Of a stretch of 64,000 bases of DNA, positions 5,682 through 62,875 are shown piece by piece. A program made the translations under genes and the position numbers. Positions within the stretch are counted from its first letter, which is position 1, and each line of letters opens with the position of its first letter. Source of the stretch: Psychroserpens burtonensis DSM 12212 (GTDB lineage Bacteria; Bacteroidota; Bacteroidia; Flavobacteriales; Flavobacteriaceae); NCBI RefSeq assembly GCF_000425305.1, contig NZ_AUDE01000020.1, forward strand, positions 1 to 64,000. The letters run 5' to 3'. Under the pieces are notes generated by a model that was not told the DNA's origin, did not search any database, and saw nothing but the letters and a program-made list of their open reading frames with translations.

Positions 5682-6587
5682 ATGTTAACCATTAAAAAAT
5701 ATGCAGCAATAGATATAGGGTCTAATGCCGTTAGACTTTTGATTGCCAGTATTATAGAACAAAAAGGACAACCAGTTAAGTTTAAGAAAACCTCTCTAGT
5801 TCGTGTTCCAATTAGACTTGGAGCAGACGTGTTTTTAAATGGAGAGATTTCCGAAGACAATCAAAAGCGCATGTTAGACACTATGACTGCCTTTAGGTTA
5901 TTAATGCAATCACATAAGGTTATTACCTATAAAGCTTGTGCTACTTCTGCAATGCGAGAGGCAGATAATGGAGTCGAACTTTCTAAACTAATCTCAAAAA
6001 AAGCAAAGATTCATATTGATATTATTGGAGGAGAGGAAGAGGCAGCTATTATCGCTGCTACCGATTTAAATTCATATATAAAAGAAGATAAAACGTATTT
6101 ATATGTAGATGTTGGTGGCGGTAGTACAGAGTTTACTGTGATTCATCTTGGCAAAACAGTAGCATCAAAATCATTTAAAATAGGAACCGTAAGGCTGCTT
6201 AATGATATTGTTAAAAAAGAGACTTGGCAAGAGCTTGAGAGTTGGATAAAAACAAACACAAAAGGGTATGATGTTGTCGATTTAATCGGTTCTGGTGGTA
6301 ACATTAATAAAATATTTAAAATTTCTGGTAAAGCAATGGGTAAACCGTTAACCTACTTTTATTTAACGTCGTATTATAATAAACTTCAAACGTATTCTTA
6401 CGAAGAACGTATTACTGAGCTCGAACTTAATCCTGATCGTGCAGATGTTATTATTCCTGCTACAAGAATCTATTTATCTGCTATGAAGTGGAGTGGAGCG
6501 AAGGATATGTATGTGCCTAAAATTGGGCTTTCAGATGGAATAATAAAAAGTGTTTATTTTAAAACAGTATCGAGTATTGATTTATAA
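5682..6587 (+). CDS. ppx: Exopolyphosphatase, Ppx/GppA family
   Basis: A 301-residue ASKHA-fold phosphatase that removes terminal phosphate from polyphosphate or pppGpp. The first phosphate loop IDIGSNAVRLLI is at residues 9-20, the second VDVGGGSTEF at about 142-151, and GSGGNINK at about 205-212. It lacks the C-terminal HD-like domain of long E. coli-type Ppx, so it is the short form common in this phylum. It begins one base after ppk1 and is presumably co-transcribed with sixA and ppk1. Whether it prefers polyphosphate or pppGpp is not visible in the sequence; the operon context favours polyphosphate. Confidence 0.93.
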   Translation: MLTIKKYAAIDIGSNAVRLLIASIIEQKGQPVKFKKTSLVRVPIRLGADVFLNGEISEDNQKRMLDTMTAFRLLMQSHKVITYKACATSAMREADNGVELSKLISKKAKIHIDIIGGEEEAAIIAATDLNSYIKEDKTYLYVDVGGGSTEFTVIHLGKTVASKSFKIGTVRLLNDIVKKETWQELESWIKTNTKGYDVVDLIGSGGNINKIFKISGKAMGKPLTYFYLTSYYNKLQTYSYEERITELELNPDRADVIIPATRIYLSAMKWSGAKDMYVPKIGLSDGIIKSVYFKTVSSIDL

Positions 6588-6742
6588 ATAAGTAGACCTT
6601 GAAACCATTTTAAGCTCAGAAAATCAATATTTATTTTTTAATTTTAAATTTCATCCTATATTTACAGTCTCAAATCTTTGCTAAAAGCTAGCCTGATTTT
6701 GAGGTTATTCTCCTAAAAACGAGAAGCCTAATTAAAATATTT

Positions 6743-7279
6743 ATGCAAATGAAATCATTATTACTTACTCTATTATTTGTGATAGTAACAACGTTATCTT
6801 TCTCACAAGAAGTTAGTTATGGTATAAGGGGAGGATTAAATATCTCAAATTTAGATTTTGATCCCGACCCTACATTTAGTAACCAGCATAGAAATGGATT
6901 TGCCTTTGGAGGATTCGTTGATTATGGTGTGACAGAGCAGTTTTCTATTCAATTAGAGGTTCAATATTCTGCAGAAGGAGCAAAAGCAGATGAGTTAAGA
7001 GCAGATTATATTCAAATGCCAATCATGGCACGTTTTAGTTTGGGTGAGAAATTCACTGTTGGTATAGGACCCATGGTAAGTTTAAAATCTTGGGAAGAGC
7101 AAGACGTTTTCTCAACGTTTACTTTTTCTGGTGTTGGAGGAGTAGAGTATATGATTACAGATGAGTTATTCGTCGATGCTCGTGTCCATTATGGCTTAAG
7201 CAATATTCTCGATAAAGATTTAACAAATCTAGAAGCACAAAATACAACGATACAATTTGGCTTCGGAATTAGAATCTAA
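6743..7279 (+). CDS. Outer membrane beta-barrel (porin-like) protein
   Basis: A 178-residue protein with a signal peptide ending TLSFSQ|E at about residue 21. The rest is alternating beta strands with the pattern of the Bacteroidota outer-membrane beta-barrel domain: GIRGGLNISNL near the mature start, FAFGGFVDYG, MPIMARFSLGEKF, and a C-terminal strand ending FGFGIRI in an aromatic/hydrophobic pattern typical of barrel insertion. Likely an eight-stranded outer-membrane protein of unknown cargo. ATG codons at 6743 and 6749 are both possible starts. It is transcribed alone and ends at a shared hairpin terminator before the convergent miaE. Confidence 0.8.
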   Translation: MQMKSLLLTLLFVIVTTLSFSQEVSYGIRGGLNISNLDFDPDPTFSNQHRNGFAFGGFVDYGVTEQFSIQLEVQYSAEGAKADELRADYIQMPIMARFSLGEKFTVGIGPMVSLKSWEEQDVFSTFTFSGVGGVEYMITDELFVDARVHYGLSNILDKDLTNLEAQNTTIQFGFGIRI

Positions 7280-7300
7280 TTACAATATCATATAAAAATA

Positions 7301-7331
7301 AAAAAGCTTCAATATTGTATTGAAGCTTTTT
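7301..7331. terminator. Bidirectional rho-independent terminator
   Basis: A perfect 14-bp stem (7301-7314 with 7318-7331) around a three-base loop has an A-run on one side and a T-run on the other. It lies between the convergent beta-barrel gene and miaE and can end transcripts from both sides. Confidence 0.88.
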
Positions 7332-7333
7332 TA

Positions 7334-7915: not shown

Positions 7916-7917
7916 AA

Positions 7918-8481: not shown

Positions 8482-8491
8482 GTTGAATGTT

Positions 8492-10231: not shown

Positions 10232-10270
10232 TGTTTATTGAGCTAATTAATATTGAATTAGTACTAAGAA

Positions 10271-11386: not shown

Positions 11387-11391
11387 CTATT

Positions 11392-11708
11392 AAGTAATTC
11401 GCCTTATCGCAGAGACCTTGCGTCTCTGAGGAAAGTCCGGACACCATAGTGCAATCATAGTGGCTAACAGCCATCCATCGCGAGGTGAGGAAAAGTGCAA
11501 CAGAAAGTATGTACAGGTCATGCTGTAGTGAAACCAGGTAAACTCTATGTGGTGCAATGTCATGTAAACTAGTGCTTGAGCGTACACGCGCGATACTAGA
11601 GGGTAGGCAGCTAAAGTTTGCTGGTAACAGTAAACGTAGATAAATGATAAGGATGCTAACATGATTTATCATCGTTAGTATACAGGATCCGGCTTATAGA
11701 TTTACTTA
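11392..11708 (+). ncRNA. rnpB: RNase P RNA (bacterial type A)
   Basis: The catalytic RNA that cleaves tRNA 5' leaders. The universal conserved elements are present: GAGGAAAGTCCGGAC near the 5' end (about 11428-11442), the ACAGAAA element at about 11500, and the AGATAAATGAT and ACAGGATCCGGCTTA elements at about 11637-11696. The 5' sequence AAGTAA pairs with TTACTT at the 3' end to close helix P1, which sets the ends to within a few bases. The length of about 317 nt is in the range of Bacteroidota rnpB. A -7 element precedes it and a strong hairpin terminator follows. Confidence 0.96.
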
Positions 11709-11714
11709 AACATA

Positions 11715-15601: not shown

Positions 15602-17029
15602 ATGATCGCATCAGATTTTTATAAACTACTTATTCATAAGTTTCCATTTAAGCCAACATTAAAACAAACTATTGCTTTAGAGCAGTTATCAAATTTTATA
15701 TTTGATGATTCTCCCAATGCATTATATCTTTTAAAAGGGTTCGCAGGAACGGGAAAAACGAGTATCACAGGTACTTTAGTTTCTAATTTATGGGAAACGA
15801 AAAAAAGTGCTGTTCTTTTAGCTCCAACTGGTCGCGCTGCTAAAGTGATCTCAAATTATTCTAAAAAAGAAGCCTTTACAATTCATAAAAAGATTTATTT
15901 TCCGAAGAAAGATCAAGGCGGAGGTGTAAAATTCGTTTTGCAACCTAATAAACATCGCAACACTATATTTATTGTCGATGAAGCTTCAATGATTCCAGAT
16001 GTACCATCAGATTTTAAAAACCTTGAAAGCTCATCTTTATTAGATGACTTGATGAGTTATGTGTATTCTGGTCATAATTGTAAGGTGTTACTTATTGGTG
16101 ACAAAGCGCAGTTGCCTCCTGTGAAATCAGATTTATCTCCAGCACTAGACCAACGATTACTAGAGTTAAACTATGATAAAAACGTAACTAGTATTGAGCT
16201 TGACGAAGTGGTGAGGCAAAATCAAGATTCTGGTATTTTAAGTAATGCCACTAGAATTCGTGAGGCTATTGAGCATGATTTTTACGAGTCCTTTACATTT
16301 AACTTAAATGGTTTTGATGATATTGTAAGACTTATAGATGGTCACGAAGTCATGGACGCTATTAATGATTCATATGGTCAAAATGGTCATGAGGATACAG
16401 CAATTATTGTACGAAGTAATAAACGAGCTAATTTGTATAACCAGCAAATAAGAAACCGTATCCTGTTTAACGAAAACGAACTTACGGTAGGTGATTTTTT
16501 GATGGTTGTGAAAAATAATTATTTCTGGGTGAAACCAAACTCTGAGGCTGGTTTTATTGCTAATGGAGATATCATTCAGGTATTAGAGATTTTTTCAATT
16601 TCAACATTATATGATTTTCGGTTCGCAGAAGTAAAAGTGCAAATGGTTGATTATCCTAATATGAAACCCTTTGAAACCGTACTTCTATTAGATACTATTG
16701 AAGCAGAAACACCATCATTACCTTACGAAGAGAGTAATAGGTTGTATCAAGAAGTTCAAAAAGATTATGAAGATGAAACGTCTAAATATAAAAAATTTTT
16801 AAAAATTAAAGGCAATAAATATTTTAACGCCTTGCAAGTCAAGTTTTCTTATGCGATCACATGTCATAAATCACAAGGTGGACAATGGAATACCATTTTT
16901 GTTGAGCAGCCCTATTTGCCAAATGGAATAGATAGAGATTATATGAGATGGCTCTACACTGCAATTACCAGAGCTCAGGATAAATTGTATCTTATTGGCT
17001 TTAAAGATGAATTTTTTGAAGAGGATTGA
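15602..17029 (+). CDS. RecD-like superfamily 1B DNA helicase
   Basis: A 475-residue P-loop helicase of the RecD/Dda type. Walker A is LLKGFAGTGKTSI at about 42-54, motif Ia is LLAPTGRAAKV, motif II is FIVDEASMI at about 122-130, motif III is LLIGDKAQLPPV, and the C-terminal UvrD_C_2-like motif is YAITCHKSQGGQW followed by YTAITRAQDKLYLI. It is shorter than RecBCD RecD and has no obvious N-terminal interaction domain, so it is a stand-alone helicase, perhaps in repair or fork processing. It is transcribed alone. Confidence 0.88.
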   Translation: MIASDFYKLLIHKFPFKPTLKQTIALEQLSNFIFDDSPNALYLLKGFAGTGKTSITGTLVSNLWETKKSAVLLAPTGRAAKVISNYSKKEAFTIHKKIYFPKKDQGGGVKFVLQPNKHRNTIFIVDEASMIPDVPSDFKNLESSSLLDDLMSYVYSGHNCKVLLIGDKAQLPPVKSDLSPALDQRLLELNYDKNVTSIELDEVVRQNQDSGILSNATRIREAIEHDFYESFTFNLNGFDDIVRLIDGHEVMDAINDSYGQNGHEDTAIIVRSNKRANLYNQQIRNRILFNENELTVGDFLMVVKNNYFWVKPNSEAGFIANGDIIQVLEIFSISTLYDFRFAEVKVQMVDYPNMKPFETVLLLDTIEAETPSLPYEESNRLYQEVQKDYEDETSKYKKFLKIKGNKYFNALQVKFSYAITCHKSQGGQWNTIFVEQPYLPNGIDRDYMRWLYTAITRAQDKLYLIGFKDEFFEED

Positions 17030-17509
17030 TCACTAGGCGTAGTTCGATTGTCATCAATGAATTGCTTCTAATATGTTCTTCGGAAATTGGAAGATTTCAA
17101 AATTTTAACTTTAAAGTCCTGAAGGGTTAAGACCTAATGCTTCACAACAGACACAACTATAAGTATATATCTATGCATTGTTTTATCGAAATAAGTTAAT
17201 TTGCGAGTATTCGCATACGTGTTTGCGCTTACTCTCCCTTTTTATTTTAATCGATGTGAATTACAAAGCGTCTTAGATTAGGGTTCATACTATCTAGCTC
17301 CAGAGTAAGCCATAAAAAAAACGCCCTTTTTTTTATTTTTATTTCAACATAAAAAGAAACCGTAACTAATGAAGATTACATGACTGCCAGCAGTCAGGTA
17401 CTTATTTTTATTTTATATAAAGGAAAAAAGCATCAATTTATTTTATAATGATTTCAGCAGTTAAATGGTATTAAAGTTTTATTTTTGATACTCCACTAAT
17501 TTTGTTCAA
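17030..17509. other. Intergenic spacer upstream of kdsB operon
   Basis: This 480-bp gap has no open frame of note. It contains one copy of the dispersed word CTTCGGAA (17078-17085), two short imperfect inverted repeats (17202-17215 and 17381-17396) and a TAATTTTG octamer at 17497-17504 directly before the kdsB ATG. I see no RNA gene or transposon remnant in it. Confidence 0.5.
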
Positions 17510-20693: not shown

Positions 20694-21242
20694 ATGAGAT
20701 GGATAGCTCAGTTTATATATTTTAAGATATTAGGTTGGAAAATCATTGGCAATTTTAACTTCTCAAAGGATACAGTTAAGAAAGCGGTTATCATCGCTTT
20801 TCCTCATACGAGTTGGCATGATTTCTTTATCGGACTTTTTCTTCGGAAAATAACAGGTATCAAGACAAACTTTGTTGGTAAGAAAGAATTATTCACTTGG
20901 CCTTTTGGTTATTATTTTAGAGCCATCGGAGGTGCTGCCTTAGATAGAACCTCTGGTCAAAATAAGGTTGAAGCCATTTCAAAATTATTTGATGAAAAAG
21001 ATGAGTTTAGGCTAACGCTCGCTCCCGAAGGTACTCGTAAAAAAGTCGAACAGTGGAAAACTGGCTTTTATTACATCGCCAAAACTGCAAATGTGCCCAT
21101 AATCATGTTTACTTTGGATTTTAAAAATAAACAAAACAATATTTCAGAGCCTTTTTATCCTACAGATGATATCGAGGCCGATTTTGCTTTTATGAAAGCA
21201 TTTTTTAAAGATGTTATTGGTAAAATACCTGAGTATTCTTAA
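20694..21242 (+). CDS. Lysophospholipid acyltransferase family protein
   Basis: A 182-residue membrane-associated acyltransferase of the PlsC-like family. The catalytic H(X)4D motif is FPHTSWHDFF at about residues 37-46, and the substrate motif is LAPEGTRKK at about 105-113. The N-terminus WIAQFIYFKILGWKIIGNF is an amphipathic membrane-associated segment. It is shorter than typical PlsC (about 240 residues), so it belongs to the short flavobacterial type. It starts 1 bp after kdnB and closes the operon, consistent with lipid A or phospholipid assembly. The acyl acceptor is unknown. Confidence 0.88.
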   Translation: MRWIAQFIYFKILGWKIIGNFNFSKDTVKKAVIIAFPHTSWHDFFIGLFLRKITGIKTNFVGKKELFTWPFGYYFRAIGGAALDRTSGQNKVEAISKLFDEKDEFRLTLAPEGTRKKVEQWKTGFYYIAKTANVPIIMFTLDFKNKQNNISEPFYPTDDIEADFAFMKAFFKDVIGKIPEYS

Positions 21243-22030: not shown

Positions 22031-24298
22031 TTAATACATACTCTTAATCTTTCTCAATTTATCTTCCCATGTAGAAAGACTCTTTTTCTGATTATCAACG
22101 TTTTTAAAGACTTCTTTAACTAAAGGATTGCTTTCATCAACATTTGAGAAAAATTGCATGTTATTTTCTAATTGAATGATTTCACCTTTAATATCACTTA
22201 TCTTCTTTCTGATGAAGTTTTGCTCGTTGTCTAGTAATCTATTGTCACCTGGTTGTGCTAAACTCTCAAGCTTATTTTCAAACTTGATCATGTCAAGTTT
22301 TGCTCTATCCATATCTAATTTGCCAAATAGACCGTCAAGCGCTTTATTAAACTTTCCATCAATATAGCGTTTGTTAGAAGGTACGTGCCCTATGGCTTTC
22401 CATGCTGCAATCTTTTCTTTAATGGTCACGATGTCCTTTGTGGAATCACCAGACAATTCTAAAGCGTTAACCTCTGCAAGCATTGTGTTTTTTTGTTCAT
22501 AAGCGACCATGAGCTCTTTATTAGCCTCATCTCGTTGTGAATTTAATCTATCAAAATAAGCATTACAAGCACCTCTAAACTGCTTCCAAATTTTGTCACT
22601 ATCTTTTCTTGGAACATGACCAATTTTTTTCCAATCACCTTGAATTTTCTTCATCAAAGGCGTTGTAGTTGCCAAATCCTCACTGTCCTTATTGTCTAAA
22701 GCAATTTGAATTAAAGCTTTCTTCTTCTCTAAATTATCATATTGGTCCTTCTTGAGACTCTTATAGAAATTGTTTTTCTGACGATTAAAAGTTCTAACGG
22801 CATCTTTAAATTTAGACCAAGTGGCTTCATTTGATTTTTGGGGCACTTTACCAGCATTAAAAAACTCTTCCCTTAATGCTTCAACAGATTTTATTTTCTT
22901 TTGCCAAGCACTGTGTGCGTTAGAAGTGTCTCCCGATACCTCCTTAATCCTAGTGATAATCTCTTCTTTTAATTCTAAGTTTTTCTCACGAATTTTATCT
23001 AAGCTTGCGTAATAACCTTGACGTTTGTCATGTATGATTTTAGTTGCGTTACTAAAACGCTCCCAAACTTCATCACGATATTCTCTGGAAACAGGTCCCA
23101 ATTCTTCTTTCCAAAGTTTGTGTAGTACCTGTAACTCTCTAAATGAACGATTGATATTATCATCTGCAGCCAATTCTTCGGCACGTTCTATAATTTTAGT
23201 TTTTTGATCTAGATTATGTTTGAAGTCTAAATCTCTTAAATCGCGATTTAAATGCAAAACATCATAGAAAATCTCAACATGGTGATGGTAAGAATTCCAA
23301 GCATTATTGTAGCGATCTCTTGGTATTGGCCCAGCACTGCGCCACTGTTCTTGTAAGTCTTTAAAAGTTTTATAGGTGGTATTTATATTTTCCTCATCAT
23401 TAACCAATCCTTTTATTTGCTCAATAATATGCAATCTATTTTCTAGATTAGCCTTTAAATTATTTTCACGTTGCTTATGATAAGCCCCTAAATTATTTCT
23501 ATAGGTTTTAAAAACGTTGTTAAACTGTTTCTTAATAGGAGAAGCGTAGTAGAAGTCAATTTCGTTGCCGCCTTCACTCAAAAACTCTTCCTTTTTTTCG
23601 TCTAATAACGTATCAAATTTAGCGTTGAATTCAGATTTGATATCTTCAACTTGAGTTTTAATATTTTGTACTTTTTGGTTTTTTACGAGCTGTTCAAATT
23701 CAATTGATAGTTGCTCCATAGACATCGTATGGTAGTCTTTAGATTCTAACGTATGACGCTCAGCGTTTTCTTCATCTTCTGCGTCTTCTGCATTGGACTC
23801 TTCAATTTCTTCAACATGTGCATCTGTTTTTTTAGCAACCTCAGATGGTTTTAAAACTTCTTTTACATCTTCAGTGGTTGTATCTAAAGTATCTGCCGCT
23901 TCTTTAACCGGTTTTTCAGCAACCTCTTTTACCTCTTCAGTAATTGTTTCTAAAGCGTCAGCTACTTTTTTAATGGGTTCTTCAGTAACCTCTTTTACAT
24001 CCTTAGTAATCGTTTCTAAAGTGTCTGTTACGATGTCAATAGGTTCTTCAGTAACTTCCTTTACATCTTCAGTCACTGTTTTTAAAGTTTCAGCTACTTC
24101 TTCAACAACCTCTTGGACATCTTCGGTAATCTCTTCAACAGTTTCTGTCACGCTCTCAGCAGTGTCTTCTGTGGTTGTTTTGATGTCTTCGGAAATAGTC
24201 TCACTCGCATCAGATGAACTTTCTGGAGTTTGAGGCGTTTCAGTAGATTTTAATTCTTTGTTTCCATCTGCTTCTTGCAGGTTATCATTCTCAGACAT
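22031..24298 (-). CDS. DUF349 domain protein with acidic repeat N-terminus
   Basis: A 755-residue protein. Residues 1-155 are acidic and rich in Thr, Glu and Val, including four 22-residue repeats (68-155) with the core EDVKEV. From about residue 195 to the end it is almost fully helical, with repeated DUF349 units marked by W..AG.VPR, WKKIGHVPRKDSDKIWKQFR and WKAIGHVPSNKRY-like segments. DUF349 proteins occur throughout Bacteroidota and their role is unsettled. No signal peptide or membrane segment is visible, so it should be cytoplasmic. It is transcribed alone. Function unknown. Confidence 0.85.
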   Translation of the reverse strand: MSENDNLQEADGNKELKSTETPQTPESSSDASETISEDIKTTTEDTAESVTETVEEITEDVQEVVEEVAETLKTVTEDVKEVTEEPIDIVTDTLETITKDVKEVTEEPIKKVADALETITEEVKEVAEKPVKEAADTLDTTTEDVKEVLKPSEVAKKTDAHVEEIEESNAEDAEDEENAERHTLESKDYHTMSMEQLSIEFEQLVKNQKVQNIKTQVEDIKSEFNAKFDTLLDEKKEEFLSEGGNEIDFYYASPIKKQFNNVFKTYRNNLGAYHKQRENNLKANLENRLHIIEQIKGLVNDEENINTTYKTFKDLQEQWRSAGPIPRDRYNNAWNSYHHHVEIFYDVLHLNRDLRDLDFKHNLDQKTKIIERAEELAADDNINRSFRELQVLHKLWKEELGPVSREYRDEVWERFSNATKIIHDKRQGYYASLDKIREKNLELKEEIITRIKEVSGDTSNAHSAWQKKIKSVEALREEFFNAGKVPQKSNEATWSKFKDAVRTFNRQKNNFYKSLKKDQYDNLEKKKALIQIALDNKDSEDLATTTPLMKKIQGDWKKIGHVPRKDSDKIWKQFRGACNAYFDRLNSQRDEANKELMVAYEQKNTMLAEVNALELSGDSTKDIVTIKEKIAAWKAIGHVPSNKRYIDGKFNKALDGLFGKLDMDRAKLDMIKFENKLESLAQPGDNRLLDNEQNFIRKKISDIKGEIIQLENNMQFFSNVDESNPLVKEVFKNVDNQKKSLSTWEDKLRKIKSMY
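23834..24097 (-). repeat. Four 66-bp coding repeats (22-residue units)
   Basis: Residues 68-89, 90-111, 112-133 and 134-155 of the DUF349 protein align as four units of 22 residues. Each has an ETIT/DVKEV core followed by EEP or EKP. Two heptad triplets plus one residue could form a coiled coil or an extended acidic stalk. The repeats can change copy number in frame. Confidence 0.75.
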
Positions 24299-25118: not shown

Positions 25119-26131
25119 ATGTTTTTTATTGTGCGTTGACCATAGCGTTCTAAGGCAAGTACAACGATGATACCTAAGATAATATAACCAATAGCAATGT
25201 AAGTTTGTGACTCATTTTGAGGTAATAAACGCTCATAATTTAATATGATTTTTTCACCTCTAGAGTCTAAAATAAAGTTACCATTATCCTGAACTTTAAA
25301 AATTGTTTTTTTCCAAGGCCAAACAACACCTAATGAACCAACGATAAAACCAATAATTGATGCCGTCGTTATGCTTTTGTAATGTTTTAAAACATAACTT
25401 AATACATGAGAAAACGAAACTAAGCCAACGACAGAACCTAGGGTAAAGATACTAAGTACCTTTAAAAGCCTTAGTCGCACTTCATTTTGCACGAAACTAA
25501 AATCTCCAGTAATGAGCTCTGAAAATGTATCGTACAGTGCATTTACAGAATCTACAAGTAGTAAAATATAGTTACCTAAAAGTATGAGAATAAATGATCC
25601 TGAAAAACCAGGAAGTGTCATACCAGCAACACTTATTATTCCGCAGAAAAAAACAAAGAAGAGATTGTCATTTTCTACTGCAGGATTAAGAAAACTTATG
25701 GCAATACCTAAGCTAATTCCAATACCTAGTGACATAATACTCTTAAAATTCCAGTCTTTAAAATCTTTATTAATGTAATAGATAGACCCTATAATCATTC
25801 CGAAGAATAAACTCCAAACATAAAGCTCATGGTTTTTAAGAAAATAGTCTAAAACTTTGGAGACGCTAAAGTAACTCACAATCATTCCAAGGAATAATAA
25901 ACTCAAAAACCTACCATTAATGTATCTGTAAAAACTTTTAAATCTACCATTTACTAGCAGTTTTAGCGCAGTCTTGTTAACACGTTGAAGCGAATAGATA
26001 AACTCTTCATAGAAACCAGCTACAAAGGCAACAACACCTCCAGAAACACCGGGCACCTTATTGGCAGCACCCATACCAAGTCCCTTGATGACTAAGAAAA
26101 CGCGGTCTTTAAGAGTTCTTGTGCTTTGCAT
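25115..26131 (-). CDS. DUF368 (PopT-type) polyprenyl-phosphate transporter, copy 2
   Basis: A 338-residue multi-spanning membrane protein. The family motif AANKVPGVSGGVVAF is at about 21-35, and a second, inverted copy GMTLPGFSGSFILILLG follows at about 168-184. There are eight or more hydrophobic helices. DUF368 proteins were shown in other bacteria to move undecaprenyl phosphate back across the membrane (PopT). Tandem with a paralogue directly upstream: its ATG shares one base with that gene's stop. In the motif this copy has N instead of D (AANK versus AADV), a change at a position that may matter. Function by family knowledge. Confidence 0.85.
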   Translation of the reverse strand: MQSTRTLKDRVFLVIKGLGMGAANKVPGVSGGVVAFVAGFYEEFIYSLQRVNKTALKLLVNGRFKSFYRYINGRFLSLLFLGMIVSYFSVSKVLDYFLKNHELYVWSLFFGMIIGSIYYINKDFKDWNFKSIMSLGIGISLGIAISFLNPAVENDNLFFVFFCGIISVAGMTLPGFSGSFILILLGNYILLLVDSVNALYDTFSELITGDFSFVQNEVRLRLLKVLSIFTLGSVVGLVSFSHVLSYVLKHYKSITTASIIGFIVGSLGVVWPWKKTIFKVQDNGNFILDSRGEKIILNYERLLPQNESQTYIAIGYIILGIIVVLALERYGQRTIKNI

Positions 26132-29940: not shown

Positions 29941-31745
29941 TAATTGCCTTTTTTAATCAAAGGTTTGTTAAATGTTCTATTTATCTTTTGAAGGGATTTC
30001 GTTTTTGTTTTAGATGTATTGAGTGGTGTAGGGAGTTGTCTACCAGCTTTATTGACTTCGTCTTTATCTTTTTTACCCGCTTCTTCAATACGCTTTAATA
30101 GTGCTTCATCAATAAACTCTTCATCTTCAATATAAGGTTCTAATCCCTTTATTATTGGGAGAATCAGTGGTGGATCATCACTAAATAGGTCTTCAACACT
30201 TTTGGGTTGCTCGTCGCCTCGCCAATCAAATCCTCTAAATAGTCTAGCATTCTTCGGAAATTGGGGTTCCGGATAAATCTCGCCATCTACCTGATTAACA
30301 AGTGTTACTAGTTTATATGGTCCATCAAATTGTAGATTGATGCTTCCAGATTTAGATTTATTAATTCCAACTAAGGTGTCGTTGTCATCTCTACTGTAGA
30401 ATATGATTTCTGCATTTTTGATAATATCAACATTATAGAGTTCATTGTTTTCAAATAAACCAATTAACCGCTGACCTTTAATTTGATTAAAACCACTACC
30501 TAAAGAGTCTTTGCTAATTAGAAACGCATTATTGAATACTTTTAAAGAGTCTAATTCTTCTTTTTCTACATTAGAAATTAGATGTATAGAATCTCCAGAC
30601 ATTTGATTACCTAAATTCCAAATCAAAGGTTTTCTTTTGATTGAAAAGGCATCACCAGTATTAAATCGCTTGATATTAATAAGCTGTGTCAAACCAGATT
30701 CACGATTTGCATGGATAGAATCTGCTTTACCACTCATATCACTTTTAAACATCTTTGCATTGTAATAAGCTCTTGTAATTCTGTGTTCAGGCTCGCCTGT
30801 AACCATTAATTTATCTGCATGAATGTATAACGAATCGTTTTCTTGAATGGTTATTGCCAAAGCTCGTTTTGTTATAAACAGAGAATCTTTATCTCTAAAG
30901 ACTTCACCGTGGTGGCCTTTGATAATAGTTTTATTAACAGTATCAGTAATTGTAATATTATTATCCGCAGAGGCAAAGCTTCGCTTTCTATCAAAATATA
31001 AACTATCACCTTCTATTTGTAGGTTATCGTAGTCAATTTTAGAGTTTTTTATAAAATGTCCAATATCGTTGTTAGTGTCGTAGAATCCACGTTCTGAATA
31101 GACTTTACTAGCCTCACCAATAATGGTTGAAGGACCATACATATAAGCGTGGCCATTTTCAGAATAAAAATCGAGCTGATTTGTTTCTAGAGTGTATTTA
31201 GGATTTACCAACACCACATCTTTAAGAAAACGATATTTACTTTGGTTCATATCATATCGACCAATTTGACTTGTAATCGTACCCGATGAATCTCTAACCA
31301 CTTTCCCTCTACTATTATAAAACGCTTGCTGTGTGAAGCGATTAAAGTATAGTGTATCTGTGGTTAGCGTAGATTGTGGTTCTGTTAAGACCACCTTTCC
31401 AGCTGCAATTGCCAATTGTGTAATACCACTATATTCTACATAATCTGAAGTCATATTGATCGTATCACCTTGCTTCATTCTCACATTACTATACGCTTCA
31501 ATGAAGTCTTCATTTTGATAATACAAGGCTTTGTCACACCACATGTCTATCCCTTCGTGAACGATATGAATTTGACCTTGATTACTACGAACAAAAGTGG
31601 TAACGTTTTCTCCTTTTAAAGAGTCTCTAACCGTAAAACCAGAATATTCTATAAAAATTTTCTTTGGTGGCTGCGCATTGGAGAGTGCTGTTGAAAAACA
31701 ACATATAATGAGTAGTATAAATCTAAGCGTAAGATGCAAGGTCAT
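29940..31745 (-). CDS. OstA/LptA-like LPS transport protein
   Basis: A 601-residue periplasmic protein with a signal peptide ending ALSNA|Q at about residue 24. The mature part is a long run of beta strands of the OstA/LptA type: MWCDKALYYQNEDFIEAYSNVRMKQG-like and LTTDTLYFNRFTQQAFYNSRGKVV-like segments repeat several times. The C-terminal 100 residues are charged and partly disordered, with a basic tail. By family it bridges lipopolysaccharide from the inner to the outer membrane, and it is longer than E. coli LptA, as is usual in this phylum. It is the first gene of the transcript with the class III aminotransferase. Confidence 0.85.
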   Translation of the reverse strand: MTLHLTLRFILLIICCFSTALSNAQPPKKIFIEYSGFTVRDSLKGENVTTFVRSNQGQIHIVHEGIDMWCDKALYYQNEDFIEAYSNVRMKQGDTINMTSDYVEYSGITQLAIAAGKVVLTEPQSTLTTDTLYFNRFTQQAFYNSRGKVVRDSSGTITSQIGRYDMNQSKYRFLKDVVLVNPKYTLETNQLDFYSENGHAYMYGPSTIIGEASKVYSERGFYDTNNDIGHFIKNSKIDYDNLQIEGDSLYFDRKRSFASADNNITITDTVNKTIIKGHHGEVFRDKDSLFITKRALAITIQENDSLYIHADKLMVTGEPEHRITRAYYNAKMFKSDMSGKADSIHANRESGLTQLINIKRFNTGDAFSIKRKPLIWNLGNQMSGDSIHLISNVEKEELDSLKVFNNAFLISKDSLGSGFNQIKGQRLIGLFENNELYNVDIIKNAEIIFYSRDDNDTLVGINKSKSGSINLQFDGPYKLVTLVNQVDGEIYPEPQFPKNARLFRGFDWRGDEQPKSVEDLFSDDPPLILPIIKGLEPYIEDEEFIDEALLKRIEEAGKKDKDEVNKAGRQLPTPLNTSKTKTKSLQKINRTFNKPLIKKGN

Positions 31746-32055
31746 ATAATTTGCTCAAAAATAGCTATTATCTCTTCGGAAATATCTGAGTTAACAGATT
31801 TTTAGTAGATTATTTTGATGTTGGCTGGTTGTCGCGTTTAGAAACACCGAGCTTTAACAGACATTTATAGATAAATTTTAATTAAATAGTTTAGCGCTGA
31901 ACTTTTCTAGAGAGAGGTAGGCGTTACTATTGGAGACTCATAATTTATCTAGAATTTATAAGCGCATAAACCTGTACTAATTCGTGAAATCCTTTTAAAA
32001 AAAAAGAGATATTATTTTACTAATATCTCGTGCTTATTATGTTTAATTCTAAATA
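31746..32055. other. Intergenic spacer between purA and OstA genes
   Basis: This 310-bp gap holds the purA terminator hairpin at its right end (31997-32029) and one copy of the dispersed word CTTCGGAA at 31774-31781, just upstream of the OstA gene. I see no other gene or RNA in it. Confidence 0.5.
31997..32029 (-). terminator. Rho-independent terminator of the relA-fur-purA transcript
   Basis: On the minus strand a nine-base stem GAGATATTA / TAATATCTC (32006-32029) with a six-base loop is followed by nine consecutive T. It lies 26 bases past the purA stop. Confidence 0.85.
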
Positions 32056-33327
32056 CTATCGATTAATAGTCTGAGTCCTATCTGGTCCTACAGAAACAAT
32101 AGTAATAGGAATCTCTAATTCTTTTTCTAAAAATGCTATATATGCATTCAATTCCGAAGGAAATTGAGACACCTCACGCATTTTTGTCAAATCTTCTTTC
32201 CAGCCTTTAAAATCTGTATAAATAGGAGTGACGTTTTCTTCTTCTATATTGAATGGCAAATGCGTAATAGTCTGCCCTTTGTATTTGTAAGTAGTACACA
32301 CTTTTAAGGTTTTAAATCCAGAAAGGACATCCCCTTTCATCATACTTAACTGTGTGACGCCATTAATTTGACAAGCATATTTAAGTGCAACTAAATCTAA
32401 CCAACCGCAACGTCTTGGTCTTCCAGTAACGGCACCAAACTCACGACCAATACGAGCCATTTCTGCACCAACCTCGTCAAATAATTCAGTAGGAAACGGG
32501 CCAGAACCTACACGAGTTGTGTATGCTTTGAAGATCCCAAATACTTCACCAATTTTGTTTGGTGCTACACCTAAACCTGTACATGCTCCAGAAGCAGTTG
32601 TGTTTGATGATGTAACAAAAGGATATGTTCCAAAGTCAATATCTAATAATGAACCTTGGGCACCTTCTGCTAGTATTGGCTTTCCAGCTTTTAAGGCTTG
32701 GTTTAAATACTCTTCGCTATCTATGAATTGTAATTCTTTTAAACGCTCTACAGCTGTAAAGAATTCATCTTCCATTTCTTTTAAATCATATTGAATATCT
32801 ACATTATAGAATCCAATCATGGCTTCATGCTTATTTGCTAAAGCTCTATATTTTTCTTTCCAATTTGGTAATTCTAGATCGCCAATTCTAATTCCGTTAC
32901 GACCAGTTTTATCCATATATGTTGGACCAATACCTTTTAGAGTAGAGCCAATTTTAGCTTTACCTTTAGAGGTTTCTGATGCAGCATCTAATAACCGATG
33001 CGTAGGAAGAATTACATGTGCTTTTCTAGAAATAATTAGATTTGACTTGTAGTCTAACTTAAACTGGTCTAATCCGTCTAATTCTTGCACAAACACAACA
33101 GGATCAATGACGACACCGTTACCAATAACATTCATAGACTCTTTATGAAAAATCCCAGAAGGAATCGTTCTTAATACATGTTTAATTCCGTCAAATTCTA
33201 AAGTGTGACCTGCATTTGGTCCTCCTTGAAAACGAGCAATAATATTGTATTTTGAGGTGAGTACATCAACAATTTTTCCTTTGCCTTCGTCGCCCCATTG
33301 TAATCCTAGTAGTAAATCTACTGCCAT
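32056..33327 (-). CDS. purA: Adenylosuccinate synthetase
   Basis: The enzyme joins IMP and aspartate with GTP in AMP synthesis. The ATG at 33327 is chosen because it starts MAVDLLLGLQWGDEGKGKIV, the family N-terminus with the GDEGKGK phosphate loop at 12-18, and gives 423 residues, the usual length; a longer frame would run into fur. GGPNAGHT at about 36-43, GIGPTYMDK, and TRVGSGPFPTEL are further signatures. The C-terminus TIVSVGPDRTQTI is conserved. fur ends 7 bp upstream, and the order relA/spoT, fur, purA is common in Flavobacteriaceae. Confidence 0.97.
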   Translation of the reverse strand: MAVDLLLGLQWGDEGKGKIVDVLTSKYNIIARFQGGPNAGHTLEFDGIKHVLRTIPSGIFHKESMNVIGNGVVIDPVVFVQELDGLDQFKLDYKSNLIISRKAHVILPTHRLLDAASETSKGKAKIGSTLKGIGPTYMDKTGRNGIRIGDLELPNWKEKYRALANKHEAMIGFYNVDIQYDLKEMEDEFFTAVERLKELQFIDSEEYLNQALKAGKPILAEGAQGSLLDIDFGTYPFVTSSNTTASGACTGLGVAPNKIGEVFGIFKAYTTRVGSGPFPTELFDEVGAEMARIGREFGAVTGRPRRCGWLDLVALKYACQINGVTQLSMMKGDVLSGFKTLKVCTTYKYKGQTITHLPFNIEEENVTPIYTDFKGWKEDLTKMREVSQFPSELNAYIAFLEKELEIPITIVSVGPDRTQTINR

Positions 33328-39992: not shown

Positions 39993-40793
39993 TTAATTAA
40001 AACGACGTTGCCTTTTAACTTCAAAAATCAAAATTCCTGCTGCGACAGAGACATTCATACTGTCAATTTCGCCTTGCATTGGGATTTTAATGTTCTGAGT
40101 AGAGGCTTTTCGCCATGAGTCACTCAATCCATCGGCTTCTGTGCCGACCACAATTGCAGTTGATTGTGTGTAATCCTGTTCGTGATAATTGACTGCTTCC
40201 TGTAAAATAGCGCTGTAAATAGAAATTTTATGGTCTTTTAAAAATATAATTATCTCATCAGTGTCACCAACAGCAACTTGATTGGTAAACAGGCAACCAA
40301 CACTAGATCTTATAATATTTGGGTTATACAAATCACCTTTTGGGTTAGCAATAATCACAGCATCTACATGAGCAGCATCTGCAGTGCGAAGAATGGCTCC
40401 AATATTCCCAGGTTTCTCTGGAGCTTCGGCAACGAGTATTAAGGGGTTTGTCTTCGGAAATTTTAAATCTTGTAGTTTATGCTGTTTCATTTCAGCAATA
40501 GCGATTATGCCTTCTGTAGAACTGCGATATGCCAATTTTTCAAATACATCTTTAGAAATTTTGATGCGTTCAATTTCCGAAGAAATGAGAACCTCTAAAT
40601 CCTCTGGAGATATTAATTCTGGATAAAACAAAACAGACGTAATCTTATAATTAGCCTTTACTGCTAATACTAATTCACGCTGACCTTCAATAATAAAAAG
40701 ACCCGTTTTTTTGCGTTCTCGAGATTTGTCTTTTAAAACAAGAATTTGTTTTATCAGTTGGTTTTGTGTGCTCGAAATTTCTTTATAGTGCAT
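39993..40793 (-). CDS. TrmH/SpoU-family RNA methyltransferase
   Basis: A SPOUT-class 2'-O-methyltransferase of about 266 residues. The N-terminal substrate domain has LKDKSRERKKTGLFIIEGQREL. The knotted SAM-binding domain has EAPEKPGNIGAILRTADAA, NPNIIRSSVG, VVGTEADGLS and IPMQGEIDSMNVSVAAGILIFE. The start at 40793 is preferred because a -7 element at 40825-40832 would give a 26-base leader; an in-frame ATG at 40808 would leave about 11 bases. It is transcribed alone. Whether it modifies 23S rRNA or tRNA cannot be told from the sequence. Confidence 0.92.
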   Translation of the reverse strand: MHYKEISSTQNQLIKQILVLKDKSRERKKTGLFIIEGQRELVLAVKANYKITSVLFYPELISPEDLEVLISSEIERIKISKDVFEKLAYRSSTEGIIAIAEMKQHKLQDLKFPKTNPLILVAEAPEKPGNIGAILRTADAAHVDAVIIANPKGDLYNPNIIRSSVGCLFTNQVAVGDTDEIIIFLKDHKISIYSAILQEAVNYHEQDYTQSTAIVVGTEADGLSDSWRKASTQNIKIPMQGEIDSMNVSVAAGILIFEVKRQRRFN

Positions 40794-43900: not shown

Positions 43901-45397
43901 GGAGTAACGATTACTGTAGCTTTTGATTCAGATAATACGGTGAGTTGTGCAGGAGGAAATGATTGCTGTACAATTCAGTTTGATTTTGATGTCTATTGCT
44001 CAACTTCAGTAGGAATAATTGAAGTAAACGCTTTTGTAGATGCTAATGCAAATACCATTTTTGATGGATTAGAGCTTAGTTTCTCTAACGGCTACTTTAC
44101 TTACGAAAAGAATAACGACGGAAATATCAATACCGTAAATTCTTCAACTGGCTCATTTCAAATATTGAGTACTAGTGAGACAGATCTATACGATATTACA
44201 TTTAATTTATATGAAGAGTCTTTACCATGTTATGATATTGCAACAAGTGTATTTGATAATATTAGTGTCGCTAATGGCACTACCGAAGTTTTAGATTTTG
44301 CGGTTGTAGAAGAACAAAGTTGTGAAGACTTAGCGGTTTATCTTATTAACTTTGGAGCACCACCAAGACCAGGATTTAATCATATTAATTATTTAGTATT
44401 TGAAAATTTAGGCTTTACAACAATAGTTTCTGGTAGTATAGAATTTACTGCAGATCCGCAACTTATTTATAATGGTGTAGCATTTGTTAATCCTAACTAT
44501 GTTATTAACACTACAACCACAGGTTTTACAGTAGATTTTGTAAACCTTCTACCTGGAGAGGCAGAGTTTATTCAGATTTCATTTACTAGCCCTGCAGAAG
44601 TAGAACTAGGTGAGATTGTAACTAATACTGCAAACTATGTTACAGATACAAATGATTTAGTGGCTAGCAATAACTACTCAACATTATCTGAGTTGGTTGT
44701 TGGTTCTTGGGATCCAAACGATAAAAGAGAATCTCATGGTCCTCGAGTAAACTATGATGATTTTGCAGCATCAGATGAGTGGTTGTATTATACTATTCGT
44801 TTCCAGAATTTAGGAACATTTGAAGCAGATTTTGTTAGAATAGATGATGCTTTAAATAGTCAATTAGATGCAGCAACATTCCAGATGTTGAGATCAAGTC
44901 ATGATTATGTGGTCACAAGAACAGATACTGATTTAGAGTGGTTCTTTGAAGATATCAACTTACCGGCAGAGCAAGATGATGTAGAAGGTAGTCAAGGTTT
45001 TGTTTACTTTAGAATTAAGCCAAATCCAGGGTATAGTATTGGAGATATCATCCCAAATACAGCAGCCATTTTCTTTGACTTTAATGCACCTGTAATTACC
45101 AATCAATTTGATACCGTATTCGTAGAAGATAATTTATCTGTTGGAGATGCAAATTTCATGGCATTTGATATGTTCCCAAATCCTGCAAAAGATAAAGTGA
45201 CGATACGCTTAAATGCTAACCACTTCGGAAATGTAACAGTCCATATTATTGATCTCCAAGGAAAGCGAATCTTAGAACAGTACATTTCCGAAGGAAATAA
45301 TCTCGAATTAGATATTACAGATTTACAAAGCGGACTCTATTTCGTGAAACTAAATACAAATAATAAAAGCCGAGTTAAAAAATTGATTATAGAATAA
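40994..45397 (+). CDS. T9SS-secreted multidomain protein with CUB domain
   Basis: A 1467-residue exported protein. The signal peptide ends LTNA|Q at about residue 20. A CUB-like domain covers about 25-138 (CLTINFTSDASGTTMGWTAEVFCE-like). Repeats of about 110 residues follow, with FxVCDDDDDGFASFDL and VYIRVGN-like strand motifs. Two related domains with VCDEGGVNTMYCYDDD and fibronectin-like strands are at about 680-1000. A DUF7619-type region (SWDPNDKRESHGP, IGDIIPNTAAIFFDFNAPV) is at about 1235-1385. The C-terminus is a type A T9SS sorting domain: FPNPAKDKVTIRL, IIDLQGKRIL, LQSGLYFVKL. Likely a surface adhesin or secreted binding protein. Confidence 0.9.
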   Translation: MKSKLLFPLIVLFFSFLTNAQNLVMQDGAWTECDFVLTDTGDVTSNYGNNENLTLTLCPPTDGELVTINFSEFSTQANLDVLSIYDGASADSPLIGTYSGTNNPGFISADNASGCLTINFTSDASGTTMGWTAEVFCETQDFEINQPTDYFVCDENSDGFYDFDLTQKDQEILSGLSPSDYIVTYYVTQQDADNMTNALVSPYANTVNPQLIYVSVINLSTGNVQQTSFTLFVNVAPQPELLDLYEICEGGSIILDSLLNNPDFQYQWYVDGFILVGETFSILEVVEQGYYQLQVFTADGCESFDEAEVILTTFQVDTPDSFIVCDDDDDGFASFDLESQMLEIIGAVDNPTLVVTFHESEADALNDLNSLISPYNNIVQLSQVIYIRVSSIVGDCATVSPLELIVDINCVSSSSSILNICADDPNIPVDVDLTVEETTLVNGEDTSNFIFEYYLTEAEADSQTNPITNPSSFAISGNSATIFVRVEEVGTGDNTIENIFVNFNLNPQVDFNGPYTVCSGNEIVLTPFVNGGSGAGFNYLWNDGQIDPEIVVFEAGLYSVTVTDTLTGCTGFAEVQVDLGEAANITAPQTLVSCGTNGVFDLTSIIPDVLNGLDPNNYNIAFYDNFSNVFSQTNALADPDLYTATSNPQTVYIRVGNLTDECFAFGAFDLISENCPTTIDCAEGPVNTTYCYELNSAEQYTYASADGFPVQVVFNAGQVENTWDELTVLDTDGSLLYSGYGHDGDLTGLTFMSSGDTLTIYVDSDEVFACSTENYTPIDYDVSCVDLTAVPNCTSVLTTPVNGDIDINENTDLTWTAASGLVAGYKLTVGITSNGTEVIDNQDVGNVLAYDVGTLDYETTYYVTITAYNANGDALDCNEESFTTRANPNQTVVCDEGGVNTMYCYDDDDTSEFSFQSDSGEPLTIFFNAGTTEVNFDEITILDSDGTIMNPTLPYGNNGDFSGLTYTSTGVTITVAFDSDNTVSCAGGNDCCTIQFDFDVYCSTSVGIIEVNAFVDANANTIFDGLELSFSNGYFTYEKNNDGNINTVNSSTGSFQILSTSETDLYDITFNLYEESLPCYDIATSVFDNISVANGTTEVLDFAVVEEQSCEDLAVYLINFGAPPRPGFNHINYLVFENLGFTTIVSGSIEFTADPQLIYNGVAFVNPNYVINTTTTGFTVDFVNLLPGEAEFIQISFTSPAEVELGEIVTNTANYVTDTNDLVASNNYSTLSELVVGSWDPNDKRESHGPRVNYDDFAASDEWLYYTIRFQNLGTFEADFVRIDDALNSQLDAATFQMLRSSHDYVVTRTDTDLEWFFEDINLPAEQDDVEGSQGFVYFRIKPNPGYSIGDIIPNTAAIFFDFNAPVITNQFDTVFVEDNLSVGDANFMAFDMFPNPAKDKVTIRLNANHFGNVTVHIIDLQGKRILEQYISEGNNLELDITDLQSGLYFVKLNTNNKSRVKKLIIE

Positions 45398-50784: not shown

Positions 50785-50916
50785 ATAAAGGTGGTTGATT
50801 AATAATTCTTTCTAAAGATAAAAATTAACAACATATCAATAGACAAAATATAAAGTTTTAACATTTCCGAAGTCATAGACCACCTCCACTTTAAAACAAT
50901 CGCAGTAGATAGGGTA

Positions 50917-51987: not shown

Positions 51988-52523
51988 GATTCAAAAATAG
52001 GTATTTTTTAGAACCTTATCCCTGTAGTTTTTAACGATTTTTTTTTCCTGCTTTTCGCTTAATCTTTTGTACCAAAAGGATATCACTGCAATCAGGAGTA
52101 GCTAGAGTGATTGTTTTGTTTAGTGATCTAATTTCTTGCATTCATTTTTTCTTGATAAAAAAACGAACCAAAAAAATTAAAACGGAACCGCATATTCCTA
52201 AAAACTTCTTTCACTTTGGCACGAAAATAAGAAGTAAGGGTAATTAGATTGATCTTGTCAACACCGTGTGTTTTTTAATTTCGAAATCATTTAATCTTGT
52301 TACGATTTTTGTTTAACCCTTCGCTTCAATTCATTTTTTACGGAACATATGCTCATATTAGCTGACTTGTAAACTAATCTCCCACAATAAGATTCTAAAA
52401 CCAGCTAACTCAAACTAGTCTAGTTGAACTACAATTCGTAACTTTGCAAAATAGATGTTTGAGTTGATGTTTCCGAAGTGAAAAAACTTAAAATCTTACT
52501 TAATTTTAAACTATATATTTTAT
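51988..52523. other. Intergenic region upstream of pepD
   Basis: This 536-bp AT-rich gap has no open frame of note. It carries the pepD -7 element at 52439-52446 and a copy of CTTCGGAA (minus strand, 52471-52478) in the pepD leader. The stretch at about 52040-52200 has T- and A-rich segments similar in style to flavobacterial intergenic DNA. I see no RNA gene. Confidence 0.5.
52439..52446 (+). promoter_or_regulatory. Candidate -7 element TAACTTTG upstream of pepD
   Basis: An exact TAnnTTTG element 78 bases before the pepD ATG. The nearest TTG is only 12 bases upstream, which is closer than the usual spacing, so the assignment rests on the -7 match. Confidence 0.4.
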
Positions 52524-55302: not shown

Positions 55303-55303
55303 T

Positions 55304-60034: not shown

Positions 60035-60054
60035 TTGGATTTACAATTTGATTG

Positions 60055-60062: not shown

Positions 60063-60276
60063 GAGTAATTGAGCTAAAGTACGGTCTACTAAAATTGTTT
60101 TAGTTGTGGTTTGAGTTGTATATTTAAGAAAATGTCTAGTGTGAAATTATGTTGTAGAAGCTTTCTTAAGTTTTGTCTTTTTGATCCGGAAAGCTATTAG
60201 GAGAATGAATCACTTTTTTAGTAAGGAATTTTAAGGTTTATTAATTGTGTATCTTTAAAATTATAATTAATTATTT

Positions 60277-61254: not shown

Positions 61255-61318
61255 TAATGTATCAAGCCTAAAAGAATTAGCAGCACTATTATGATCTAAC
61301 GCAAATTAGTTATGGTTT

Positions 61319-62107
61319 TTAGTCAATCCAAAAAGTGCCTATTGAATACGTTTTCGCTTGACCACTAATGATGACTCTATCGTTTTTATCTTGACAGTTT
61401 AATGTTCCAACTCTATCAGAGATTTGCATAGCAGAAAGTTCTTTTTTGTTAAGTCTCTTTGACCAAAATGGAATTAAAGAGCAATGAGCTGAACCAGTCA
61501 CTGGATCTTCTAAAATTAAGGCTTGAGGTGTAAAAAACCGTGATACAAAATCACAATCATTACCTTTAGACGTGACAATAACACCACCTGGATTTAGGTT
61601 TATTTGGTCAAATGTTTGTCTGTCAATTTTGATGTTTTTTATATCTTCTTGAGAATCATAAATTAAGACGTAATCTCTTGATTTAAATACCTCCTTTGGT
61701 AATATGTTTAGTGATTTTTCTATTATTTCAGGTAGTTTAGAAATCAAGGGCATTCTTGATGGAAAATCTAAAAAATAGAAATCATTTTGCATGAAAACAG
61801 TGAGGTCTCCACTCAAGGTTTCAAATATAATTTTGTCTTTAGGATAATTTAAAATTGATTTTAAACAATGGGCAGTTGCAAGAGTTGCGTGACCGCATAA
61901 ATCCATTTCAATTTCTGGAGTAAACCATCGTAAATGTATTTTATCTCCTTTGTCAACATAAAATGCAGTTTCTGCAACCGCATTTTCTCTCGTTATTTTT
62001 AAAAGTAAGTCGTCTGATAACCATTCGTCTAAAGGCACTACACAAGCTGGATTTCCACCAAAAACAGTATTAGTAAATGCGTCTATTTGATAAAGGTCTA
62101 ATTTCAT
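61319..62107 (-). CDS. PhzF-family isomerase
   Basis: A 262-residue enzyme of the diaminopimelate epimerase-like PhzF family. QIDAFTNTVFGGNPACVV lies at 7-24, the catalytic Glu46 is in ENAVAETAFYV, and LRWFTPEIEMDLCGHATLA is at about 58-76. GSAHCSLIPFW at the C-terminal half is conserved. PhzF itself isomerises DHHA in phenazine synthesis, but no other phenazine gene is present, so the substrate is unknown. Transcribed alone. Confidence 0.9.
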   Translation of the reverse strand: MKLDLYQIDAFTNTVFGGNPACVVPLDEWLSDDLLLKITRENAVAETAFYVDKGDKIHLRWFTPEIEMDLCGHATLATAHCLKSILNYPKDKIIFETLSGDLTVFMQNDFYFLDFPSRMPLISKLPEIIEKSLNILPKEVFKSRDYVLIYDSQEDIKNIKIDRQTFDQINLNPGGVIVTSKGNDCDFVSRFFTPQALILEDPVTGSAHCSLIPFWSKRLNKKELSAMQISDRVGTLNCQDKNDRVIISGQAKTYSIGTFWID

Positions 62108-62232
62108 GTCTCGTGAAGGTCGTAATTGTAGTTCGCGTTTGGTAGTTGTTTAAACAACTAATTTAGCTAAAATGGAATTAACCAAAGAGAATTCCAAAGA
62201 AGTTTTCCAAGCAGGCTAAAACTAGTAATAAA

Positions 62233-62352
62233 TTATAAACTTATATGAATATGTACCCCGTCAATAGTTGCATCCTTAATGATTTTCGATAGTTGCTTAT
62301 CTTTTTTCTTCTTTTCTCCCAACATCTAGATCATTTCTTCATCACTTAATTG
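62233..62352 (-). pseudogene. Short remnant of an unknown gene
   Basis: In one frame the minus strand reads QLSDEEMI, a TAG stop, MLGEKKKKDKQLSKI and IDGVHIHISL, then TAA. The helical, charged, HIHI-ended text looks like the end of a real protein, and the TAG splits it. An intact 30-residue peptide from the ATG at 62323-62325 is an alternative. Family not recognised. Confidence 0.4.
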
Positions 62353-62470
62353 TTAATTTACAAAAGTAAAGTTGTTAACTTATATGATGTATAAACTTAA
62401 CTTTATAATTCCGTAGAGGGGAGCTATTTTTATTTCTAATTTTATTTAAGGCGTTAATAATTAAAATATA

Positions 62471-62875
62471 TTGTTCTTGTTTCTGGTCATTATGGTTGCC
62501 GACTGTACTTCGAAAAACGGTGGTGAAAAACAAGTAATTGATGCTGATAAATAGCTCGAAAGAGATTTAAAAATGCATCACAAGGAAGGGGCCTCCTATT
62601 TAGGTGGAGATACATCTGTAATGAATTAACAAAACTTTACTAAGGATATTGTTATAGTAACAGTTGAAGTTAATCTGGCTGGAATTGATGAGTGCAAAGC
62701 TTACCACTTAAACTATTTGACTGGCTTTACTGAAATTAAATAGACCATTATTGACGCTTTTGGGCGAGGAGGTAAACTGGTCAAACACTGAAACTTTAGA
62801 GGGAAGCACATTGGAATGTTCTTCGGAATTGCTCCAATAGCAATTTTTTTAGATTTAGCCAGAAGGACTCTTTAA
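62471..62875 (+). pseudogene. Lipoprotein gene remnant with four in-frame stops
   Basis: One frame, from a TTG at 62471, gives a hydrophobic stretch ILFLFLVIMVADC (lipobox-like VADC), then TSKNGGEKQVIDADK, and stops TAG (62552), TAA (62627), TAG (62741) and TGA (62789) break an otherwise protein-like sequence ending FLDLARRTL at 62873-62875. The segment VKH-stop-NFRGKHIGM is consistent with Trp changed to TGA. No ATG start remains ahead of the signal, so the start was probably lost too. Product unknown. Confidence 0.6.

Follow-up and report, generated by a model that had tools for sequence, protein, structure and literature searches.

The window, the whole 64-kb stretch of Psychroserpens burtonensis DNA analyzed here, raises the question of why a single eight-base word should recur so often on both strands. 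CTTCGGAA occurs 18 times between positions 5849 and 62828, nine times on each strand (Table 1), and this recount agrees with the copies and positions given in an earlier note on the same DNA. Dinucleotide shuffles of the window yield a mean of 1.17 copies and a maximum of six (100 shuffles). Under an order-2 Markov model, no 8-mer in this DNA is more over-represented than CTTCGGAA (18 observed, 0.8 expected), confirming the excess over chance that the note had described. Ten of the 18 copies take the form CTTCGGAAAT.

Table 1. Copies of the word in the window, with position, strand, and basis of the assignment.
Feature	Position	Strand	Basis
CTTCGGAA copy, then AT	5849..5856	-	exact match
CTTCGGAA copy	7261..7268	+	exact match
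CTTCGGAA copy	15900..15907	-	exact match
CTTCGGAA copy, intergenic	17078..17085	+	exact match, simple gene caller
CTTCGGAA copy	20841..20848	+	exact match
CTTCGGAA copy	24187..24194	+	exact match
CTTCGGAA copy	25798..25805	-	exact match
CTTCGGAA copy	30252..30259	+	exact match
CTTCGGAA copy, intergenic	31774..31781	+	exact match, simple gene caller
CTTCGGAA copy	32152..32159	-	exact match
CTTCGGAA copy	34709..34716	-	exact match
CTTCGGAA copy, inverted copy 123 bases away	40452..40459	+	exact match
CTTCGGAA copy, inverted partner of 40452..40459	40575..40582	-	exact match
CTTCGGAA copy, inverted copy 63 bases away	45223..45230	+	exact match
CTTCGGAA copy, inverted partner of 45223..45230	45286..45293	-	exact match
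CTTCGGAA copy, intergenic	50865..50872	-	exact match, simple gene caller
CTTCGGAA copy, intergenic	52471..52478	-	exact match, simple gene caller
CTTCGGAA copy, intergenic	62821..62828	+	exact match, simple gene caller

Abundance in the Genome

The genome to which the window belongs (G000; 3.98 Mb in 68 contigs, with the window in contig 15) contains 1060 copies of CTTCGGAA, 551 forward and 509 reverse, compared with 173 copies (94 and 79) of the reversed word used as a control. The whole-genome count therefore does not approach expectation, and the strand balance of the window extends to the genome. Density is 267 copies per Mb in the genome and 281 per Mb in the window. Finer statistics were obtained from about one fifth of the genome, comprising the window, contig 1, and 200 kb each of contigs 2 and 3, and sites were assigned to genes or noncoding DNA with a purpose-written simple gene caller. 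The leading C, which the earlier note had found at every TTCGGAA 7-mer, is present at 18 of 18 in the window, but this does not hold throughout the genome sample, where 38 of 279 have another base (C 241, T 20, A 14, and G 4 in 813 kb).

Coding Context and Strand Symmetry

In the codon-shuffle null model, synonymous codons are exchanged between all sites that encode a given amino acid, leaving the protein unchanged. The coding sequences of contig 1 and the window contain 120 copies (55 on the coding strand and 65 on the opposite strand), compared with 6.8 after codon shuffling. Those of contigs 2 and 3 contain 85 copies (47 and 38), compared with 7.7. The CTTCGGAA excess is not a coding artifact, and the copies are not confined to homologous codons. 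Genic copies in the window and contig 1 make good use of five of the six classes of reading phase and strand and use the sixth once; in a larger site set all six are used, two of them rarely. Genic sites favor amino acid contexts such as SEE, FGK, and FPK.

Intergenic enrichment and even spacing had been suggested as properties to look for, and copies do occur in noncoding DNA, including five of the 18 in the window, in line with the estimate of the earlier note (Table 1). However, 36 of 241 copies fall in the 14.1% of the sequence that is noncoding, with 205 being genic, so there is no intergenic concentration, and the spacing between copies is close to random.

With both own-genome sets summed, genic CTTCGGAA lies 102 times on the coding strand and 103 times on the opposite strand. 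Local GC skew is clear at 161 of the 241 sites, where 77 copies fall on the strand richer in G and 84 on its complement. This lack of strand polarity disfavors Chi, KOPS, and other replication-oriented words, as the earlier note had argued for polar motifs. Its description of a genome-wide, strand-symmetric signal that does not arise from coding is likewise confirmed by the genome counts, the codon shuffle, and the genic balance. An apparent run of plus-only copies beyond 214 kb on contig 1 was rejected as an effect of listing; the contig sequence holds 57 plus and 68 minus copies.

Extended Consensus

Across 241 sites, the six bases 5′ of the core are 56-77% T against a background of 33%, and the base 3′ of the core is A in 66%, whereas control words of the same composition have flat flanks (12,010 sites). 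The T-tract is also present at the 36 intergenic sites and across phase classes, with some positions weaker in one class. The extended signal, at the DNA level, is a T-tract of about six bases followed by CTTCGGAA and A(T). Farther out than about -15 and +25, no base of the flanks departs from background by more than 0.05 bits, and thus the copies do not form a dispersed repeat family. No clear hairpin covariation was found around the core among eight pairs; the values at -3/+8 and -4/+9 are 0.647 (0.657 expected) and 0.444 (0.411 expected). Within the core, the 813 kb contain little or no excess of single changes at positions 0, 1, and 7. The changes that do exceed expectation there are A or G at position 2, A or C at position 4, and T, C, or G at position 6, with the excess of C at position 4 arising in part because CTTCGGAAG overlaps its own reverse complement.

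Conservation and Distribution Among Relatives

Contig 1 is syntenic with a contig of a congener (G267). The two align over 113 kb at 76% identity, and 13 of 43 own sites are kept exactly in the congener, compared with 231 of 2446 same-composition controls (9.4%). In the opposite direction, 13 of 24 congener sites are kept exactly in the own genome, compared with 231 of 2161 controls (10.7%). The CTTCGGAA sites are therefore maintained and also turning over. Genes without a congener orthologue contain 0.22 copies per kb, compared with 0.38, which is the direction expected for an uptake signal and is not significant (p = 0.15).

By hand tally, 28 of 299 Flavobacteriaceae genomes (236 genera) contain at least three times as many copies of CTTCGGAA as of the reversed word. 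All three genomes of the window's genus have the word (word/reversed word 1060/173, 707/220, and 858/182), and the highest count is found in G279 (2678/245). The named-genome sample, with names taken from relatives of the outer-membrane barrel, comprised 48 genomes searched, from 50 of 80 named loci with L166 and L202 left out. Named carriers with a ratio of at least 2 include Psychroserpens sp. SPM9 (958/301), Altibacter sp. HG106 (2187/322), Cochleicola gelatinilyticus (1495/187), Patiriisocius marinus (499/95), Marixanthomonas spongiae (881/251), and Mesonia mobilis (376/164), in contrast to its congener M. phycicola (117/109). The searched genomes of Winogradskyella, Olleya, Dokdonia, Nonlabens, Psychroflexus, and Aquimarina have no excess, their ratios running from 0.1 to 1.1. 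Among 146 genomes drawn across the order, none from another family with at least 50 copies reaches three times the reversed word, such ratios being meaningless in genomes with few copies. Family f4 peaks at a ratio of 2.9 in this draw (G430, 333/116), but the excess in G430, the one f4 genome so tested, lies on one coding strand only (8 + 2 copies against 1.5 + 2.0 after codon shuffling, 100 kb), unlike the symmetric signal of the carriers.

When words are ranked by the weaker strand against codon shuffling, CTTCGGAA comes first in each of eight carrier sets, two of which are from the own genome. In all five non-carrier sets, it is at or below expectation, with 0-1 copies. The signal is genome-wide, lineage-specific, and maintained. 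Five other sampled carrier genera have a weaker T-tract, with a mean T of 0.35-0.50 over positions -6 to -1 compared with 0.63 in the own genome. A second word, CTTCAGAA, is enriched in some carriers (51 copies against 10.8 in G279, 43 against 8.2 in Cochleicola, and 21 against 4.8 in G101) and lacks the T-tract in most sets. Among six non-carriers searched for other strong dialects (G010, G059, G053, W. haliclonae, W. aurantia, and W. vidalii, the last assessed without codon shuffling), only G010 has one. The strong word of G010 is a palindrome, a different kind of word from CTTCGGAA.

Candidate Uptake Genes

The genome encodes a TonB-receptor-like outer-membrane barrel adjoining a DUF5689 lipoprotein, which resemble the Riemerella transformation pair in their domains, and relatives of ComEC and DprA are also present. 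The competence genes that the earlier note had thought worth seeking are thus represented by candidates. This transformation gene pair, the T-tract flank, and the patchy family distribution go beyond that note. None of four carriers has a match to the pilus secretin PF00263 at E 0.001, the same model matching 6 of 14 control genomes; with no secretin found in these carriers, the reader is unlikely to be of the pilus type.

The nearest named barrels are from an Algicola MAG and Psychroserpens (83, 83, and 79% identity), which on this single protein places the genus of the window at or near Psychroserpens. In a sequence search of solved structures the N-terminal domain of the barrel matches two scaffoldin fragments. 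The same kind of search gave no match at E 1 for the DUF5689 lipoprotein. Its predicted structure resembles two OB folds, with weak Foldseek matches (TM-score 0.20-0.36 of the query, among 50 matches listed). The shared OB fold shows no function, and DNA binding by the modeled protein is putative. That the DUF5689 lipoprotein may read the word is a lead.

DUF5689 is found in 27 of 28 strong carriers, which says little because it is nearly universal (271 of 299 Flavobacteriaceae genomes), and its presence was rejected as the factor deciding the word, having no power. Receptor type is not supported in this role either, as barrels of 69-75% identity occur in five Winogradskyella whose ratios are 0.31-0.57, whereas G241, at 50%, has a ratio of 4.4. 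Carrier state (ratio of at least 2) requires six changes on the barrel tree and 11 on the tree of the DUF5689 part; both trees exclude L161 and L164, whose barrel is split over two frames, as well as the duplicates L147, L148, and L152, and four intermediate genomes (ratio 1.3-2) were assigned to neither group. Among 257 columns of DUF5689 in 12 carriers and 27 non-carriers, none has a convincing link to carrier state (best p = 1.7e-4). Since the word does not follow the receptor pair, the reader may be another protein, a few residues may set specificity, or the machine may be kept in many lineages without accumulation of the word.

Interpretation of the Signal

Among the candidate explanations, the best fit is that CTTCGGAA is a DNA-uptake-type signal of this flavobacterium and several other Flavobacteriaceae lineages, which we hold to be probable with modest confidence, and we infer a role of the word in DNA uptake. 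The earlier note's preference for an uptake-type interpretation is upheld to this extent, although the similarity of the receptor candidates is no guide to the genomes that have the word. The word could instead be the site of a nucleoid, segregation, or other chromosome-organizing protein, or of a DNA methyltransferase, kept by selection. Its dispersed and strand-symmetric occurrence, its conservation between congeners, and a near-palindromic core (TTC-G-GAA) that could suit a dimer are consistent with such a site, but it lacks polarity, is confined to a minority of genomes, and differs between the two Mesonia species, making this explanation unlikely. Restriction sites are usually avoided and not enriched. 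More improbable still is a Chi-like recombination signal, read by RecBCD or AddAB in repair. Chi sites are usually polar, and CTTCGGAA has no bias to transcription or GC skew; the long degenerate T-tract and the patchy occurrence within the Flavobacteriaceae also argue against a recombination signal that the octamer length, the roughly one thousand copies per genome, and the dispersal over genes would otherwise suit.

Two further explanations are contradicted. An RNA-level element, such as a UUCG tetraloop hairpin or terminator, is suggested by CTTCGG, the DNA of the cUUCGg tetraloop, and by the T- and A-rich flanks. However, the pairs beyond the core lack clear covariation and most sites are genic and on both strands, and we regard this explanation as highly improbable. 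The word has almost no chance of being a by-product of codon or amino acid usage or a dispersed repeat family, since it exceeds the synonymous shuffle more than tenfold, is as dense between genes as within them, and has far flanks near background, notwithstanding the favored SEE, FGK, and FPK contexts.

Returning to DNA uptake, the DUF5689 surface lipoprotein, with its two predicted OB folds and a MAM/jelly-roll domain, would bind word-bearing double-stranded DNA, and the neighboring TonB-receptor-like outer-membrane barrel would move the DNA inward. ComEC and DprA would then carry and protect it for recombination. As word-bearing fragments would be taken up and recombined more often, copies would build up on both strands where the protein code tolerates them. 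We tentatively propose, as a possibility that may well prove wrong, a type-IV-pilus-independent self-DNA recognition in several Flavobacteriaceae lineages, in which the two-OB-fold surface lipoprotein, paired with the TonB-receptor-like barrel, reads T6-CTTCGGAA-A in double-stranded DNA and admits the DNA, forming a new reader class. If true, the word would point to flavobacteria that are naturally competent, and comparing DNA that contains the eight bases with DNA that lacks them would provide a simple test of the poorly understood flavobacterial transformation machine.

Comparison With Known Uptake Systems

To our knowledge, no earlier uptake word is known in Bacteroidota. A literature search found none for the phylum and no uptake experiment for any carrier; preprints and most subscription journals were outside its scope. 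The letters CTTCGGAA stand in 852 papers, and an overlooked mention among them is possible. The USS of the Pasteurellaceae have a degenerate AT-rich flank next to the core, and the DUS of the Neisseriaceae are genome-wide, strand-symmetric, and common to a set of related genera. CTTCGGAA resembles the USS in its short non-palindromic core, its occurrence on both strands and in genic and intergenic DNA, and its AT-rich flank, and the DUS as a genome-wide, strand-symmetric word common to related genera. In contrast to the USS, it is another word, with its T-tract upstream of the core as written, and occurs in the phylum Bacteroidota; it is also unrelated to the DUS. Uptake here is putative, and with no type IV pilus secretin found in the four carriers searched, the signal is DUS/USS-like yet not classed with pilus-read systems. 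Its density of 267 per Mb is comparable to that of the Pasteurellaceae USS, given as 31-913 per Mb in PMC12616744. The DUS are read by the pilin ComP. Pasteurellaceae and Neisseriaceae are the groups for which a 2025 paper on the USS receptor names uptake words, and a 2025 review singles out Neisseria as exceptional, with other bacteria taking up DNA whatever its origin.

In Riemerella anatipestifer (RA0C_RS04915/RS04920, ComEC, and DprA), a CarboxypepD_reg barrel likewise stands beside a lipoprotein with DUF5689 and a DUF5017-like part, with ComEC and DprA in addition, a likeness of domain make-up and not of alignment. Riemerella differs in that no uptake word has been reported, and its top three k-mers per length are A/T-rich (PMC7965970). 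The own-DNA preference of Riemerella columbina would gain an explanation if a word exists there too. If the uptake-type reading is true, CTTCGGAA would be a third unrelated uptake word, in a different phylum from the USS and DUS, and strong evidence for convergent self-DNA recognition.

Enrichment of a variant word and occurrence outside Flavobacteriaceae

In some carriers, the genomes in which CTTCGGAA is at least twice as frequent as its reversed-word control, CTTCAGAA is likewise enriched on both coding strands, as observed in G279 (L049-L053), Cochleicola (L058-L062), and G101 (L063-L067). The putative reader, the protein proposed to recognize the word, might thus also accept an A in position five. 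A moderate excess of CTTCGGAA also occurs in one family outside Flavobacteriaceae, f4, where it is confined to the coding strand in the 100 kb examined of the genome G430 (L265-L269).

The DUF5689 lipoprotein and its neighboring barrel

Several genomes encode a longer DUF5689 lipoprotein of 669-891 aa with internal repeats (L153, L148, L152, L155). The repeated part is DUF5689 in G256, G284, and G076, and the C-terminal part in the Cochleicola lipoprotein. The gene for the neighboring barrel, a TonB-receptor-like outer-membrane protein, reads as two open frames rather than one in G021 and G108, which are genomes with few word copies. Among Winogradskyella, two barrel types are found, with 69-75% vs. 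54-56% identity to the barrel of Psychroserpens burtonensis; these types hint at exchange or a long separate history.

RNAs in the window and a second iterated word

At the gathering score, Rfam yielded no match in the window beyond the two RNAs listed in the table.

Positions of RNAs and of barrel genes reading as two frames, with the Winogradskyella loci compared
Feature	Location	Basis
RNase P RNA class A	window 11391-11712	Rfam, gathering score
Flavo-1 RNA	window 52040-52103	Rfam, gathering score
Barrel gene reading as two frames	L161:4600-7373	
Barrel gene reading as two frames	L164:8711-11462	
Winogradskyella loci, barrels of 69-75% identity	L168, L169, L172, L174, L190	
Winogradskyella loci, barrels of 54-56% identity	L234, L236, L238, L244	

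CTTCGGAA is absent from 100 kb of G010, a different Flavobacteriaceae genome (L068-L072). The same 100 kb carries the palindrome-like CGCTTTCGCGAAAG at about 31-34 copies per 100 kb, and this word is a second highly iterated motif.
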